Source: Salinivibrio kushneri
GTDB taxonomy: Bacteria > Pseudomonadota > Gammaproteobacteria > Enterobacterales > Vibrionaceae
Length of the DNA stretch: 64,000 nt
NCBI RefSeq assembly: GCF_027286325.1
Contig: NZ_CP114588.1
Location: 1,178,001-1,242,000, forward strand
Direction: 5' to 3'
Shown here one piece after another: positions 38,988-46,198 of the stretch. The notes under the pieces were generated by a model that ran no database searches, had not been told where the DNA came from, and was given only the letters and a program-made list of their open reading frames with translations. A program made the translations under genes and the position numbers. The stretch's first letter is position 1. Each line of letters begins with the position of its first letter.

Positions 38988-39046
38988 TGTCGTTAAGGTG
39001 TCGGGATGCTGTCGTGGTAATGTCGCCCCCATTTTGCATAGTGTCG
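38988..39046 (+). repeat. phased TGTCG repeats before the XRE-2TM gene
   Basis: TGTCG occurs at 38988, 38999, 39010, 39021 and 39042: steps of 11, 11, 11 and 21 bases, so all five copies face the same side of the helix. The array ends 27 bases before the start codon at 39073 and is probably the binding site of the regulator encoded there. Confidence 0.6.
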
Positions 39047-39072
39047 ATAGGGAAGAGCACAAAGGAGCAAGG

Positions 39073-39546
39073 ATGAACGTGAAAGCACTCAGAGTTCAAA
39101 AAGGGTGGTCGCAAGACCAATTAGCACAATTTAGTGGGTTAAGTGTTCGAACGATTCAACGTATCGAGCGCGGCCACAAACCCGGATTGGAGTCGCTGAA
39201 ATCGTTGGCTGCTGTGTTTGATATCGACATTACTGATTTGCAAAAGGAGACAGACATGCAGGCAGATACTTCAATCAGTTCTGAAGAAAGAGCGATTGCC
39301 AATCGCGTCCGTGCCCTCGGCGGGTTTTATTCTCATTTGACGCGCTATGTGGTCGTGATGGCGATTTTGTTTATTATCAACTGGCAAACTAGCCCCGGCT
39401 ATTACTGGGCTTGGTGGGCTGCAATGGGATGGGGGATTGCAGTGGTCAGCCACGGTGTCAGTGCTCTGGGCATTGTCGATCTCTTTGGTGATAAGTGGGA
39501 AAAACGCCAAATAGAGAAGCGACTGAACGCGCGGTCAAAGCGTTAA
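39073..39546 (+). CDS. membrane-linked XRE regulator with 2TM domain
   Basis: 157-residue protein. The N-terminal XRE helix-turn-helix (residues 1-65: ALRVQKGWSQDQLAQFSGLSVRTIQRIERGHKPGLESLKSLA) is joined to a 2TM domain (about 85-145) with two hydrophobic segments VVVMAILFIINW and WAAMGWGIAVVSHGVSALGI. Such proteins are inner-membrane-anchored transcription factors, often acting on their own promoter. ATG follows AAAGGAGCAAGG. A strong terminator follows, so the gene is transcribed alone. Phased TGTCG repeats lie in its promoter. Confidence 0.88.
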   Translation: MNVKALRVQKGWSQDQLAQFSGLSVRTIQRIERGHKPGLESLKSLAAVFDIDITDLQKETDMQADTSISSEERAIANRVRALGGFYSHLTRYVVVMAILFIINWQTSPGYYWAWWAAMGWGIAVVSHGVSALGIVDLFGDKWEKRQIEKRLNARSKR

Positions 39547-39613: not shown

Positions 39614-40312
39614 TTACTGAGAGGCCGCTTGTTGCTGCTGGAAGCGCGTTGCGTGCTCGACTAAGCCTTTGAACAGCGCACGCTGACAGCCAAGATACAG
39701 CAAAAATTCCGGATGCCACTGAACCCCCAGTGTATAGGGGCGGTTGGGCGACTCAATGGCTTGTACAATGCCATCTAAATCACGTGCGCTAACCGTTAAA
39801 TCCTCGCCTAACGCGTTAATCGCTTGGTTGTGCAGGCTGTTTATTTTGCGTCTGCCTTGTCCCAGTCGTTGCTGGATGTGGCCGTTGACATCACGCAATA
39901 TACACAAGGTTTTCATCGGGAATATTGTCCAGCGATGAGAGGTTTTTTTACGTTGCTCGCGCAAGCTTTGGTGCAAGGTGCCGCCTAAGCAAATGTTGAG
40001 AAGTTGCGCACCACGGCAAATCCCCAGCAAGGGCTTTTGGCTTGCTAGCGCGCTTTTGATAACCGCGCTCTCCAGGGCATCGCGTTCAGAATCGTAGTTG
40101 GGTTTGACTTCGGGCTCCGCAGCATACAAAACAGGCTCGACATCATGCCCGCCGGTAATCACTACGCCATGATAGGCGTCTGGATCTAAGGCGGTTCCGG
40201 GGTGCAACTGTAACGGTTTGCCACCGTAAAGTTTAACTGCCGCGGCAACAAAAAAACGTGGCAGCCTTGCGCCTTTACTCGGGCCGGTTATTGCGATGAC
40301 GGGTTTATCCAT
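39614..40312 (-). CDS. class-I glutamine amidotransferase-like hydrolase (PuuD-like)
   Basis: 232-residue protein of the peptidase C26 group that includes PuuD, the gamma-glutamyl-GABA hydrolase. ITGGHDVEPVLY, the nucleophile elbow GICRGAQLLNICLGG (Cys near 98) and GVQWHPEFL (His) give a full Cys-His-Glu triad. It overlaps the end of the amidoligase gene by 25 bases, so the pair is coupled. Pairing of an amidoligase with such a hydrolase is a known conserved theme: one probably makes and the other removes or trims a gamma-glutamyl-type amide. No PuuA or other putrescine genes are nearby. Confidence 0.85.
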   Translation of the reverse strand: MDKPVIAITGPSKGARLPRFFVAAAVKLYGGKPLQLHPGTALDPDAYHGVVITGGHDVEPVLYAAEPEVKPNYDSERDALESAVIKSALASQKPLLGICRGAQLLNICLGGTLHQSLREQRKKTSHRWTIFPMKTLCILRDVNGHIQQRLGQGRRKINSLHNQAINALGEDLTVSARDLDGIVQAIESPNRPYTLGVQWHPEFLLYLGCQRALFKGLVEHATRFQQQQAASQ

Positions 40313-41295
40313 AAATTGTGCACCTTTTCCGCCCAGTTATTGACGATACGCGCTAATGGGTCGTTGAGATAGCCCAAATAGGCTTTGCAACATGCGTCCA
40401 ATCGCGCAGGATCGGCGGCGAGTTTTTCGACTTCCACCCAATCGTTCCATGCTTCGTGAATGCCCCAGTTTGGTTGGCTGACTTTGCTATCCGGCAACCG
40501 ATAATGAAACGTGGGCCGCGCTTGTGTGAGCCCATCATTAATGACTTTATTCACTCGCTCAGCATCAAGGTGAGTGAATAAGGGCAGCATATCTAGCGCA
40601 CGGTTTCGCGTGGGATTATCCGCAAGGTAGTCATCAATCAGGGTATTCAGATCCGGCCAATAATCAGCGGCTAGCACACGTTCAATATATGCTTTCGGGA
40701 AAGGGTCGACGTAGTTGGTTAGACGTCGCGATAGATCAATGTCGGCCCGTTTTAAAAGCCAGTCATACAAACATAAAAATGCTTTTAAATGCGCACAGAT
40801 TGTCTTGGCAGTTAAATCAGGCAGCTCTGGATTGAGCTGCATGCCGAATGCATAAACTGGGCTGTCTTCGGTTCCTTCAGCGCCTTGCTGGCGGAGATGA
40901 GCAATGAGTCGGTCAACCTCTTGCAAGCGGTCAAGCGGGAGAGGTGGGCCGACAATTTCTACGGGGACAAAGGCTTTTGCCGCCCATGCCAAGAGATCTT
41001 CGGCGGATTGATCCAGTCGATTGGTCACGGTGTTTTCACTGCGATCGCTTTGTCCCAAGCGCTTGAGTTTGGCATAGTCGAGCTCAACCACCCAGTCTCC
41101 GGCTTTGTCTCCGTCCAAGCGACGGTCATACCGGCCACCACGTTTAACGCTAAGAGAGAAAAAATCAGCCACTAATTGGGTGATGGTATCCAGTTCTAGG
41201 CCACTGAGCTCTATCTCAACGCCTACGCGACGCGTTTTCCCCTCAGCGTTTGAGGTCTGAGGCGGTGTTTTCAGTGGTGAATGTGGCGCATCCAT
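40288..41295 (-). CDS. amidoligase-family enzyme
   Basis: 335-residue protein of the amidoligase_2 family (glutamine-synthetase-like fold). The start VGVEIELSGLEL carries the ExE metal-binding pattern; DWVVELDYAKLK carries a further acidic residue, and VPVEIVGPPLPLDRL follows. Family members are predicted to form amide bonds with ATP; no substrate is known. AGGCTACACAACC before the ATG gives a usable ribosome site. It is separated from the ATP-grasp/662-residue gene pair by a strong terminator, so it starts its own unit with the amidotransferase-like gene. Confidence 0.82.
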   Translation of the reverse strand: MDAPHSPLKTPPQTSNAEGKTRRVGVEIELSGLELDTITQLVADFFSLSVKRGGRYDRRLDGDKAGDWVVELDYAKLKRLGQSDRSENTVTNRLDQSAEDLLAWAAKAFVPVEIVGPPLPLDRLQEVDRLIAHLRQQGAEGTEDSPVYAFGMQLNPELPDLTAKTICAHLKAFLCLYDWLLKRADIDLSRRLTNYVDPFPKAYIERVLAADYWPDLNTLIDDYLADNPTRNRALDMLPLFTHLDAERVNKVINDGLTQARPTFHYRLPDSKVSQPNWGIHEAWNDWVEVEKLAADPARLDACCKAYLGYLNDPLARIVNNWAEKVHNLWINPSSQ

Positions 41296-41370
41296 GGTTG
41301 TGTAGCCTCATTTTTTATCAACTTACACTAATAGGTGGGGATAAGTCTTTGACACTTAAAGGCCTGGTTG

Positions 41371-41423
41371 AATAAATAATAACCACCTGTTCAGTGGGAT
41401 AGCTAGCACTGAACAGGTTGGTT
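41371..41423 (-). terminator. terminator of the ATP-grasp/662-residue gene pair
   Basis: AACCACCTGTTCAGTG (41381-41396) and CACTGAACAGGTTGGTT (41407-41423) form a long stem with one mismatch/bulge. On the minus strand the T-rich ATTATTTATT follows. Confidence 0.8.
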
Positions 41424-41424
41424 G

Positions 41425-43413
41425 TTAGCCATTAACAGCGATGTCCGGGCTGTTTTCTACGCGATCCTGCGCCCAGCTCTCGAGAGCCATACGCTTTATC
41501 TCATTAATCGCATCGTCCGGCAGTGCGCTTTTAACACCGACCTGGATGGTGTCGTCGTGGTATAGGTATAGACGGGACAAAAATTGCTCAAAGGGCAGGG
41601 AGGCTTCCCCGTACTGTTCTCCTTTCCCTTGCGTTGACACCACGACGCCATGTCCCCAGTCTTGGCCGCTATCATTATTGGGGTTGTAGAAATACACCCG
41701 CATGATGCTGTCTTGATCGAGGGCAATACGTATCAAAGTGATTGCATGCCAGCCGACAAATCGACCCTGGCTGCTGGTGACGGCGATCCCTACCGGTTGG
41801 GGGTGTATAACGGGGATATTGCCGTTATAAAGTGGATGATAACTGCGGTAGAAGCGCTCGATAAAACTATCAAACTCTTTGAGTTGTCCTGTTTTAACGT
41901 CAACCGCAATCATGAACTCTCGTCCCACGTACCAACCATGGAACTCGGGGTTGATCCATTTATGCGGGTCTTGCTCACGATTAACACAAAGCCGACCCAT
42001 TTCAATATAAAGTTTGTCCAGATGTGGGACGAGGACAACTGAAACTGGATCGGTATCAAATGGTAACGCGGTGCTTAGTCCCTGCAAGAGGGTATGAGAG
42101 TCTAACGATTGTCCTTCAAAATGCATGCGGAGGCTTTGGTTACACGCCACTTGCACAATACAGTTGAGTAGGTAATCGGGGTCATTATATGCCCACATGG
42201 ATATCGCGCGTGCCGATTGGCAAGTCGGATTGTTACCTTGAGCCACACCCAGCGGCTGGCCAAGCACTGACATGACACCTGCTAGCAGGTGAACGCGCGC
42301 AGGTAGCTGGTCACCAAAGGCGAGGGTAAGCGTCGCAGCGACGTCTGGATGCAGATTGAGATGAATCTGGCGCCACAGACTCGGGGCGACAGGCGCATCG
42401 AACAGTACACCCCGCTCCAGCATCATTGCCAAACCATACACAGCTTGCGCGGTTTGCGGATAAATGGCTTCCTGGATCAGTGTGTGCACAAGCTGACGAT
42501 AGGTCACTAGGCAGTCTAAACCAGTATTACTTAAACCTAGCGCGGTGGGGAGTGTGTCGCTGCCCTCATTGTCCAGTAACCATCGTAAAAATATGGCGTG
42601 GTAATCAGAGGCTAAACCGACATCGTGCATCGCCCGTGCAAAGCCCATCGCCTCCTGTTGCAAAGCATTGCTGTCCATTGCATTCAAACGCTCGCAGTAA
42701 GCGTCCAACCCCGGATCGTCATAGCAGCCCTGGGTTGGGCCGTATAACGCACTAACAAGGCGATCGATGCCGAGCTTGGCTTCACCTAAGTTAATCTGTT
42801 CTTGCGACACCAAGATAGAAATCTGATTGATCATCGCCTTAATTGGATTGACCTGAATGGGGCGCTGCGCGAGTACACGCCAAACTTCATCAACCAGCTC
42901 GCTGAGAATGGTTTCATAGCCCAAATGGCTGAGAATAAAACGATATAGGGTGCTAATGGCAGGGGCCGTTGCGCCGAGTCGAATACGGCTCGACTCATCG
43001 GTAAGACCCATTACGAGTGCTAAATTGAGGCTTAAGACTTTGGCAAGAAATTGGTGTGCTTCTTGTTGGGAAAAAGGCGGGGAAGAGAGCTTCCCCTCGA
43101 CGATAGCCAGCATTCGAAGCTGGCTGAGACAATCTAGCACCACGGTGGCTTTGTCGGCATGCGCGAGTGTGTCTGGCACGAGATTCGGTACGAGATACTC
43201 GGGCTGCCCCCAATCTGTGCCCTCAAAAAGGCCTGCCTCTGTGAGCGAGACAATGCGAGAGTACAGTTGGTTAATGCCGTCATCCTGCGCCAATACACGC
43301 CCACAAATATCAATCACATGAAATTGGTGGCGTGCTTTGGCGATGGAACTCACTTGACCAAGTTGTTCAACGGCATGATCAAGCTTATTCAGTAAGCTAG
43401 ACATAGAAATCAA
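41425..43413 (-). CDS. unrecognised 662-residue protein, possible Cys-His-Asn enzyme
   Basis: I do not recognise this protein. The first ~400 residues look all-helical and soluble. A possible catalytic part follows: GNNPTCQSARAISMWAYNDP near residue 406, then GWHAITLIRIAL near 565 and YFYNPNNDSGQDWGHG near 590. A Cys in that setting followed by a His and an Asn/Asp on strand-like segments is what papain-like or transglutaminase-like enzymes show. The gene overlaps the ATP-grasp gene by 17 bases and is followed by a terminator, so it works with that ligase. It has no signal peptide or membrane segment. Confidence 0.75.
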   Translation of the reverse strand: MISMSSLLNKLDHAVEQLGQVSSIAKARHQFHVIDICGRVLAQDDGINQLYSRIVSLTEAGLFEGTDWGQPEYLVPNLVPDTLAHADKATVVLDCLSQLRMLAIVEGKLSSPPFSQQEAHQFLAKVLSLNLALVMGLTDESSRIRLGATAPAISTLYRFILSHLGYETILSELVDEVWRVLAQRPIQVNPIKAMINQISILVSQEQINLGEAKLGIDRLVSALYGPTQGCYDDPGLDAYCERLNAMDSNALQQEAMGFARAMHDVGLASDYHAIFLRWLLDNEGSDTLPTALGLSNTGLDCLVTYRQLVHTLIQEAIYPQTAQAVYGLAMMLERGVLFDAPVAPSLWRQIHLNLHPDVAATLTLAFGDQLPARVHLLAGVMSVLGQPLGVAQGNNPTCQSARAISMWAYNDPDYLLNCIVQVACNQSLRMHFEGQSLDSHTLLQGLSTALPFDTDPVSVVLVPHLDKLYIEMGRLCVNREQDPHKWINPEFHGWYVGREFMIAVDVKTGQLKEFDSFIERFYRSYHPLYNGNIPVIHPQPVGIAVTSSQGRFVGWHAITLIRIALDQDSIMRVYFYNPNNDSGQDWGHGVVVSTQGKGEQYGEASLPFEQFLSRLYLYHDDTIQVGVKSALPDDAINEIKRMALESWAQDRVENSPDIAVNG

Positions 43414-44623
43414 GATCTTCCTGTGCTTTTAATAAGTCACGCATAACGTGTGGGTCTTCACCATAAAAGTGTAGCAAGCCCCAGTGTGTGCCAAATGCAC
43501 TGCGTTTAGGCACTTTCCCTTCCATCGGTGATTGTAGTTCATGGAACTCAAAGTACTCGTGATTCTCGGTCTCTTCAGGAATGGCTAATTGACTCACCAC
43601 CCGGCGTCTTGGATAGACCCCAAAGGTACCTGCGACCCCTTTTGCATCTTTGATAGGCGTTGGGAAAAAGGCCTCTAGCTCCTCATCAGTCGTGTGTGGG
43701 TCGAAGGCGACGACCATGCCTTGATAGCAGTTAAAATCGTAGACACGTTCAATAATTTCAAAGCCTTGGAAACCGGGTGGGCGGTAAGCCACTTCACCGA
43801 AGTACATTTGCCCATCGTTGGTCACAAAGTATTCAGGGTGGATAAAGCCAAAATCAATATCAAACGCTTCGATCAGCTTCTCGATTTCCTGGGTCACTTT
43901 TTCCCGATATTTTTCCAACTCGGGGGAGGCAGGAACAAACACTGAGTAGCCGAGAGTGACGTATTCGGAGATGTTTAGAAACTGGATCTTGCGGTTTTTA
44001 ATAAATGCTTCGACCGCGAACTCCCAACCATCGAGGTGGCTTTCCATCAATAGCGGAAACTCTTCATCGGAGACACGGTCGAGATCATCAGGCTCACGCA
44101 CCATCCAATGGCCTTCGCAGCCAGCTTTGTCAAAGGCTTTCAGGTGAATGGGATCGTTGGGGTCGCCATCAAGTTTGAGCAACGCTTGGTTAACTCGACG
44201 TAGAAAACGAACGACATCAGATTTGTCTTGCGCTTCTTCAAAGATCCCAACCCGAATACCGCCGATTTGTGCACGGCGTTTCATCAAAGACTTATCACGG
44301 AAGAGAAGTGACTGTCCCATCAGTTTGGGGTTTTTAAGCAGCACGGCGTTAATAGCGCCGGCCCACTCTACGGTTTCTTCGAACAGTGGAATGGCGACAT
44401 CGACACCCATTTCTTGCAAGGTGGTGGCAATTTCAAATGAGCGATCGTTGAGGCGCTCAAAGTCCCACGGTAAATAGGGGATATCGTGTTCTTTGGCATA
44501 CTCTTCTGCCCATGTTGGGGCAACAACGACATATTTACGATCGAAACGGCTAATCGCATCAATTGCATTTAGGCTCCATCCCAGGATGGCGACGAAGCCT
44601 TTGTTTGGATCATAGTCAGCCAT
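43397..44623 (-). CDS. ATP-grasp ligase
   Basis: 408-residue ATP-grasp protein. The N-terminal domain is FVAILGWSLNAIDAISRF and AIPLFEETVEWAGAIN. The grasp region has LLFRDKSLMKRRAQIGGIRVG, LMESHLDGWEFAVEAFI and the metal-binding end DFGFIHPEYFVTNDGQMYFGEVAYRPPG. Enzymes with this fold join a carboxylate to an amine or thiol via an acyl phosphate. The closest shape is the carboxylate-amine ligase group, but I cannot assign a substrate. It is the first gene of the unit that continues with the 662-residue protein. Confidence 0.85.
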   Translation of the reverse strand: MADYDPNKGFVAILGWSLNAIDAISRFDRKYVVVAPTWAEEYAKEHDIPYLPWDFERLNDRSFEIATTLQEMGVDVAIPLFEETVEWAGAINAVLLKNPKLMGQSLLFRDKSLMKRRAQIGGIRVGIFEEAQDKSDVVRFLRRVNQALLKLDGDPNDPIHLKAFDKAGCEGHWMVREPDDLDRVSDEEFPLLMESHLDGWEFAVEAFIKNRKIQFLNISEYVTLGYSVFVPASPELEKYREKVTQEIEKLIEAFDIDFGFIHPEYFVTNDGQMYFGEVAYRPPGFQGFEIIERVYDFNCYQGMVVAFDPHTTDEELEAFFPTPIKDAKGVAGTFGVYPRRRVVSQLAIPEETENHEYFEFHELQSPMEGKVPKRSAFGTHWGLLHFYGEDPHVMRDLLKAQEDLDFYV

Positions 44624-44950: not shown

Positions 44951-46198
44951 ATGGCAAAACGGGTAGTGGTATTAGGTGCAGGCATGGTCGGTGTGTCGGT
45001 GGCGTGGCACCTTTTAAACCGAGGTTACGATGTCACAGTTATTGATAGGGTGAGCCCCGGACAAGAGACCTCGTTTGGCAATGCCGGGATCATTCAGCGC
45101 GAAGCAGTGAGGCCTTATGCCTTTCCGCGTGATCTTGCCACCTTGTTGCGTGTATTGCCGAATCGTTCCGTCGACATCCGCTACCGTCCCACCAGTGTGA
45201 TCCGAGCCGCCCACCCGTTATTACAATATTGGCACTATTCCAGTGAGAGTAAATATAAACAATTGGTGCCAGAGTATGCGGCGCTAATCATGCAATCTTT
45301 AGAGACTCATGAGGAGATGATTACATCGGCTCAAGCGGAGTCATTGATCCGTAAAGAGGGTTACCTAAAGCTATTCCGCACCCAAAAAGCCTTAGACGAA
45401 GAGTGTGCGCGAGCTGCGTCAGATAAGGCGCTCTACGGCGTGGAATACCAGGTGCTAGACGGTGAGCAAGTGGCGCGAATGGAGCCCAGTTTAACTGCCC
45501 CGGTTGCAGGTGCAATCCACTGGAAGCAACCCTGGACTGTCACTGATCCTGGCGCCTTGGTTAAGGCTTATGCCGACGATGTCATCGCTAAGGGCGGTGA
45601 GGTAAAGCTCGCGAACTTGCAATCATTGCAACAAAGTGGCGAACAATGGGTGATTAATACCGATGACGGTCAGTTACATGCTGACCAAGTCGTAATGGCA
45701 ATGGGCCCTTGGTCCTCTTACTGGTTGCGTCAACAAGGTCTGGAAGTGCCTCTGTTTACCAAGCGTGGCTATCATATGCATTACCAAAGCGATGAGAAAA
45801 AGCCGCTTAATCATTGGATCATGGATGCCGAAGTGGGGTACTTATTAGCACCGATGCGCGCAGGTGTCCGTTTAACTACGGGCGCAGAGCTAACCGCCTT
45901 GGATGCGCCCATGGATCAGAGTCAGCTTCTAGCCGCCGAGCAAGAAGCGCGGGCTTTGTATCCGATCGGTGAACGTGTTGATGAAACGCCATGGAAAGGT
46001 GGGCGTCCATGCATGCCCGACATGAAGCCGGTGATAGGTGAGGCACCCGAACGAAAAGGGCTGTGGTTAGCCTTTGGCCACGGACATCAAGGATTTACGC
46101 TAGGCCCAGCCACAGGAAAATTGCTAGGGCAAATGATGGACGGAGAAACCCCGGACGTCGACATGCACCCATATAGCGTTACTCGGTTTGCAAGATAG
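44951..46198 (+). CDS. DadA-like FAD-dependent amino-acid oxidoreductase
   Basis: 415-residue flavoprotein of the DAO/DadA family. VVVLGAGMVGVSVAWHLLNRGYDVTVID is the FAD-binding start, SFGNAGIIQREAVRPYAFP follows as in D-amino-acid dehydrogenases, and GRPCMPDMKPVIGEAP and GHGHQGFTLGPATGKL form the C-terminal flavin region. It would oxidise a D-amino acid or related amine and feed electrons to the membrane. It is divergent from the ATP-grasp cluster and followed by a convergent exporter gene. GGGAGCGAAGT precedes the ATG. Confidence 0.88.
   Translation: MAKRVVVLGAGMVGVSVAWHLLNRGYDVTVIDRVSPGQETSFGNAGIIQREAVRPYAFPRDLATLLRVLPNRSVDIRYRPTSVIRAAHPLLQYWHYSSESKYKQLVPEYAALIMQSLETHEEMITSAQAESLIRKEGYLKLFRTQKALDEECARAASDKALYGVEYQVLDGEQVARMEPSLTAPVAGAIHWKQPWTVTDPGALVKAYADDVIAKGGEVKLANLQSLQQSGEQWVINTDDGQLHADQVVMAMGPWSSYWLRQQGLEVPLFTKRGYHMHYQSDEKKPLNHWIMDAEVGYLLAPMRAGVRLTTGAELTALDAPMDQSQLLAAEQEARALYPIGERVDETPWKGGRPCMPDMKPVIGEAPERKGLWLAFGHGHQGFTLGPATGKLLGQMMDGETPDVDMHPYSVTRFAR

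Follow-up and report, generated by a model that had tools for sequence, protein, structure and literature searches.

Do four closely spaced genes on the minus strand of a Salinivibrio kushneri contig work together, and on what? They lie in the window analyzed here, a 64,000-nt stretch (NZ_CP114588.1 positions 1,178,001-1,242,000) that supplies the coordinates used below, and encode an ATP-grasp enzyme, a large partner protein, an amidoligase, and a class-I glutamine amidotransferase. A preliminary description of this DNA joined all four in one amide-forming pathway. We find instead that the ATP-grasp gene and the large gene constitute a strictly paired two-gene unit, that this pair is nested in genomes encoding ectoine synthase, and that the amidoligase and amidotransferase genes form a pair of their own, independent of the first, which lies beside it in Salinivibrio.

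A Strictly Paired Two-Gene Unit

The ATP-grasp gene (43397..44623, minus strand, 408 aa) overlaps the start of the gene for the large partner protein (41425..43404, minus strand). When the large gene is read from a TTG at 43413 (41425-43413, 662 aa), this overlap is 17 bases, as was originally stated. A start at ATG 43404, giving 659 aa and an overlap of 8 bases, is more likely because homologues align from there and the nearest listed homologue is 659 aa long; the closest homologues among the matches listed carry Salinivibrio names. The arrangement first described, four same-strand frames in two coupled pairs, is otherwise retained, including an overlap of 25 bases between the amidoligase and amidotransferase frames.

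We followed the pair through a class sample of 369 genomes, a phylum sample of 289, and 41 relatives, and through named loci representing the best 80 of at least 573 large-protein relatives in genome contigs (L014-L093), which were searched with the four window proteins. The large gene is present in 13 of the 369 class genomes. Exactly these 13 also have an ATP-grasp match scoring at least 790 bits; the other seven ATP-grasp matches score at most 85 bits. Among the best 80 named loci, 68 have a full ATP-grasp gene upstream of the large gene on the same strand, with a gap between match ends that has a median of ∼80 bases and is below 300 in 67 of them. The remaining loci comprise two with a full but divergent copy, five with a partial copy (L026, L039, L078, L084, L085), and five with none within the locus (L017, L019, L047, L052, L081). 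All seven genomes searched that lack a full neighbor (L019, L039, L047, L052, L078, L081, L084) carry a full copy elsewhere (792-853 bits), and the ATP-grasp gene of S. socompensis (L017) is split in two and contains a stop. Rarity as neighbors in other genomes, together with independent expression, had been named beforehand as the finding that would refute the four-gene pathway; this neighborhood survey bears that out in part, revealing such rarity for the amidoligase pair beside the large gene (4 of 80) and not for the ATP-grasp and large genes (68 of 80).

Eight of the 289 phylum genomes contain the large gene, six of them new and one of these six from another class, and among the 41 relatives it occurs in all eight Salinivibrio (in pieces in G003 and G006) versus none of the 33 others. 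The two genes are 55 kb apart in one genome (G326), in two genomes (G210, G317) an additional copy of the large gene has no ATP-grasp gene next to it, and three genomes of genus g315 have three to four large-gene copies each. A plasmid-borne module was rejected on the plasmid data: of 72,556 records, 3 match the ATP-grasp protein, and the match spans most of the protein in only one of them, from Halomonas sp. PA16-9, a replicon of 1.83 Mb.

Several variants of the pair were observed. Vreelandella arcis, V. subterranea, and Halomonas sp. A40-4 (L039, L078, L084) retain an ATP-grasp remnant adjoining an open large gene, with the full copy elsewhere, and the large gene itself is in pieces in Salinivibrio L017 and G003 and in G006. 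A second, lower-scoring ATP-grasp type (785-801 bits) occurs at L161:5991-9513 and L166:5920-9504, where it is divergent from a second large-gene copy, and at G403:C1:2421783-2423000, where it has no large neighbor. At L160:5979-10568 and L164:5925-11741 (genomes G612 and G515) a further large-gene copy is followed by a 494-aa frame overlapping a 351-aa unclassified frame. In L160, but not in L164, the 494-aa frame weakly matches GCS2, the glutamate-cysteine ligase family (26.8 bits); the same hydrolase is perhaps paired here with another amide ligase. For the 351-aa neighbor, a tentative likeness to desuccinylases was dropped, the Pfam and NCBIfam scans being empty for the copies scanned. Mechanosensitive channel genes lie near the pair in Halomonadaceae and some other lineages (L109:8860-12360, L092:10090-10923, L113:9492-10937), and, within one genus, two genomes have a Sir2 deacetylase gene close to the ATP-grasp gene (L120:10774-11634, L122:3371-4231).

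A Predicted Ligase and a Papain-Like Partner

The ATP-grasp assignment is weak by sequence (PF13535, 25.4 bits versus a cut-off of 27 in the Pfam scan), and a sequence search of the PDB gave no match at E ≤ 0.01. In the predicted structure of the 408-aa protein, however, the fold is clear and close to solved members, and the top structural matches are dipeptide-type L-amino acid ligases, suggesting a ligase of this type. Residues E264, E277, and R281 are invariant across 52 alignment rows; they may be the equivalents of the metal-binding glutamate pair and arginine of BacD.

The large protein was initially regarded as simply unknown. Scans against Pfam and NCBIfam gave no family for it at E ≤ 0.1, five diverse homologues match nothing in Pfam at E ≤ 10, and its single sequence match in the PDB is at chance level. 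It is not featureless: a confident structural model predicts a helical, repeat-like N-terminal part of ∼385 residues and a papain-like C-terminal domain at approximately residues 386-622. Folds were listed for residues 1-93 and 359-622, and none for the stretch between them within the helical part. In papain, the active-site glutamine precedes the catalytic cysteine by six residues. The large protein has the same spacing and the Cys-His-Asn order of clan CA, with Gln392, Cys398, His556, and Asn577 (counted from TTG 43413) invariant in 118 of 118 aligned homologues. We therefore predict a papain-like enzyme with these four residues as its candidate active site, which provides a first, predicted fold and active site for a family of at least 2807 relatives without a Pfam or NCBIfam name. 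The label that one homologue carries at its source, "Zorya protein ZorC EH domain-containing," was set aside as lacking Pfam support at E ≤ 10. An anti-phage defence system was likewise rejected, PADLOC having no match for three of the four window proteins and only PDC-S22 at E 0.042 for the amidotransferase.

Nesting in Genomes with Ectoine Synthase

Ectoine is among the main salt protectants of bacteria and is also sold commercially. Of the 369 class genomes, 53 have an ectoine synthase match above cut-off, comprising 13/13 with the pair versus 40/356 without it. The hypergeometric probability of this overlap is 2.8e-12 by genome and 6.2e-9 by genus, bearing in mind that related genomes are not independent. 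Of the best 80 named loci, 53 were chosen for this comparison and the genomes of 52 of them, all but L034, were searched; 49 of the 52 (43/46 and 6/6) encode the enzyme, and the named set reaches, by name, Hoyosella (Actinomycetota) and Desulfobulbaceae (Desulfobacterota). A second set of 19 is complete (19/19); it consists of the last six of these named genomes, six new phylum genomes, and seven Salinivibrio, some belonging to the same species as named loci. Ectoine synthase is kept in G003 and G006 despite the broken large gene. Physical linkage is seen in G298, where the large gene, a histone deacetylase (HDAC) family gene, the ATP-grasp gene, and ectC lie on one strand within 5.1 kb, and in L034, where an ectoine hydroxylase gene above its curated cut-off lies just downstream of the large gene.

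A Pair-Specific Deacetylase-Like Partner

An HDAC family gene (PF00850) adjoins or lies near the pair in six of the best 80 named loci (L020, L021, L023, L024, L055, L087), with a weaker match in L093, in 3 of 12 class genomes beyond the window's own (G220, G298, G385), and in one of the five phylum genomes read (G631). We built a subfamily profile from seven of these PF00850 genes. With this profile, 222 of the 369 class genomes show some HDAC match, yet a score of at least 532 bits is reached in just 11, every one of them pair bearing, and the next score is 331. The two pair-bearing class genomes without the subfamily are G000 and G199. Of 46 named genomes, 23 have it at 594 bits or more, and in one more (L055) the match is truncated by contig ends; it is absent from most of the alphaproteobacterial named genomes, from both Hoyosella, and from the four Salinivibrio. 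Because it occurs in 11/13 pair-bearing class and 23/46 named genomes, the HDAC-like subfamily is a frequent rather than obligatory, pair-specific deacetylase partner. Neither this partner nor the ectoine link was foreseen in the preliminary description.

Proposed Role in Salt Adaptation

We tentatively favor, at somewhat less than even confidence, a role for the ATP-grasp and papain-like proteins in salt adaptation, in which one makes and the other breaks a single amide bond, with the amidoligase pair standing apart as a separate unit. We infer ligase and hydrolase activities, a shared bond, a diamino substrate from the ectoine route, and a salt-adaptation role for the pair. The ATP-grasp enzyme would activate a carboxylate as an acyl phosphate and couple it with an amine; the probable amine is a diamino compound from ectoine synthesis, for example 2,4-diaminobutyrate, acetylated or not. 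The bond so formed would be cleaved or transferred by the papain-like enzyme, whose helical part may hold the substrate or a partner. Where present, the HDAC-like enzyme might take the acetyl group off such a compound; acetyl-diaminobutyrate, which looks like an acetyl-lysine with a shorter chain, would suit an HDAC fold.

If so, the pair could represent a new, salt-protecting branch of ectoine metabolism in halophiles of several phyla. In it, the ligase would build and the hydrolase recycle an undescribed conjugate in which a diamino acid from the ectoine pathway is held by an amide bond, and a dedicated HDAC-like enzyme would be the third member. This extended proposal is possible but doubtful; such a branch would have been missed so far because its central protein had no family name. 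More generally, because the pair recurs nearly always in genomes with ectoine synthase, it likely belongs to an unstudied salt-tolerance pathway, and its nesting there, with no function assigned to it, suggests that salt adaptation has a step, regulator, or product that is still missing. The claim is testable in the culturable genera Halomonas, Marinobacter, and Salinivibrio.

Four observations weigh against this interpretation. Three named genomes, all metagenome-assembled (L020, L026, L030), have no ectoine synthase match. Ectoine genes adjoining the pair are rare, the ectC of G298 and the ectD of L034 being the only cases, and in the window's own genome ectABC is on another contig (contig 2), not adjacent to the pair. 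Concerning the separateness of the amidoligase genes, a consensus scan found no promoter-like site before the amidoligase on the minus strand, which argues against a separate transcript.

A competing explanation is protein modification under salt stress: the ATP-grasp enzyme would attach a peptide or a single amino acid to some conserved protein, the papain-like enzyme would take it off again under the guidance of its helical part, and the HDAC-like enzyme would deacetylate the same protein. Among homologues from the best 80 named loci, median identity to the window protein is 75% for the ATP-grasp protein versus 53% for the large protein, as expected for a surface that meets a conserved target. 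The helical repeat-like part fits protein binding, and HDAC6 heads the solved proteins closest to the HDAC profile. However, the ATP-grasp protein structurally matches ligases of the dipeptide type, no target gene was seen beside the pair, and the co-occurring ectoine synthase points to small molecules. On balance, we consider protein modification rather unlikely.

Less probable again, and in our view unlikely, is that the pair is a marker of habitat, meeting a salt- or sea-related need unrelated to ectoine, so that both simply occur in salt-dwelling bacteria. The rarity of adjoining ectoine genes and the 40 class genomes with ectoine synthase but no pair are consistent with this idea, as are the mechanosensitive channel genes that are common neighbors in Halomonadaceae and suggest a general salt theme. 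Against it, the nesting is near complete across all three sets of genomes, extending to Actinomycetota and Desulfobacterota names, and the third partner family shows the same nesting.

The Adjacent Amidoligase Pair

The second pair consists of an Amidoligase_2 family enzyme (40288..41295, minus strand, 335 aa; PF12224, E 2.9e-60) and a class-I glutamine amidotransferase or gamma-glutamyl hydrolase-like Peptidase_C26 (39614..40312, minus strand, 232 aa; PF07722, E 5.6e-46; class-I amidotransferase, E 4.2e-15) with the catalytic residues C99 and H200-x-E202. With the amidoligase identified by sequence and the ATP-grasp enzyme by predicted structure, the earlier suggestion of two kinds of ATP-dependent amide-forming fold is upheld. 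Pairs of Amidoligase_2 and class-I amidotransferase were reportedly predicted by Iyer and others in 2009. In having this gene order and the catalytic Cys-His-Glu, the window pair is an ordinary member of such pairs, like those of G038, Rhodobacteraceae SC52, Dinoroseobacter shibae, and Qingshengfaniella, and here happens to adjoin another module.

The amidoligase is found in all eight Salinivibrio and in one of the 33 other relatives (G038, 39% identity); in G038 an amidotransferase gene of its own comes next, and the ATP-grasp/large pair is absent. Plasmids yielded 11 amidoligase matches; in seven regions read, the amidotransferase is next door in three and not in four, and no ATP-grasp gene is annotated in these seven stretches, for which the gene table is incomplete. 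Amidoligase and amidotransferase accompany the large gene in only 4 of the best 80 loci, the four Salinivibrio, and the four-gene layout is confined to these.

In the window, the two pairs are separated by a gap of 129 bases containing a terminator-like hairpin (41371..41417, minus strand) with an 11-bp core stem, a 10-base loop, and a T/A-rich tail. Its fold energy is -25.4 kcal/mol (z -4.40), matched by none of 200 shuffles. The stem is common to three of five aligned Salinivibrio sequences (the window, L014, and L016, but not L015 or L017), L016 differing, by eye, in one compensated change, one wobble, and one mismatch. Simple scans of the region gave chance levels of both terminator-like sites (7 versus 5.3 expected), leaving the fold z-score as the support for the hairpin, and promoter-like sites (1 versus 5.7 expected).

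That all four enzymes act on one product, as originally proposed, is highly improbable: same-strand order, close spacing, conservation of the large gene and amidoligase in every Salinivibrio (the large gene being broken in two of them), and the missing promoter-like site favor it, but the Salinivibrio-only layout, the hairpin between the pairs, the stand-alone amidoligase-amidotransferase pairs elsewhere, and an amidoligase frame that is still open in the genomes with a broken large gene (G003, G006) all speak against it.

The four genes are flanked on the plus strand by an FAD-dependent oxidoreductase akin to D-amino acid dehydrogenase, below its model's cut-off (44951-46198), and by a helix-turn-helix protein with a 2TM domain (38998-39546).

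Comparison with Known Systems

No description of the ATP-grasp/large pair was found in the open-licence literature, subscription papers lying mostly outside the scope of this search, in agreement with the preliminary description, in which the addition of this pair was noted as unfamiliar. Its components have recognizable relatives. The ATP-grasp enzyme resembles the L-amino acid ligases BL00235, BacD/YwfE, and RizA, but is only 12-17% identical to them and, in the class sample, is always accompanied by the papain-like partner. The deacetylase-like subfamily is a clear PF00850 member whose nearest PDB relatives are HDAC6 and HDAH, from which it differs in forming a separate high-scoring group seen only with the pair in the class sample.

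The nearest architectures are the Anbu operon and the glutathionylspermidine synthetase/amidase (GspSA) of Escherichia coli. The former comprises ATP-grasp, alphaE, transglutaminase-like, and Anbu proteins and is of unproven function (PMC6376114); it is similar to the window pair in that an ATP-grasp ligase adjoins a cysteine-type transferase or hydrolase. In contrast, the four window genes and the two flanking genes scanned have no Anbu, alphaE, or transglutaminase match, and the helical and papain-like parts of the window protein are in one chain. In GspSA, an ATP-grasp ligase works with an amidase on the same amide bond. The window pair is predicted to share with it the combination of an ATP-grasp ligase and a papain-like amidase, the amidase part of GspSA being a papain-fold CHAP domain (PMC10318531). 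It differs from GspSA in the absence of GSP_synth and CHAP matches, in comprising two genes rather than one chain, in its large helical part, and in being nested in genomes with ectoine synthase.
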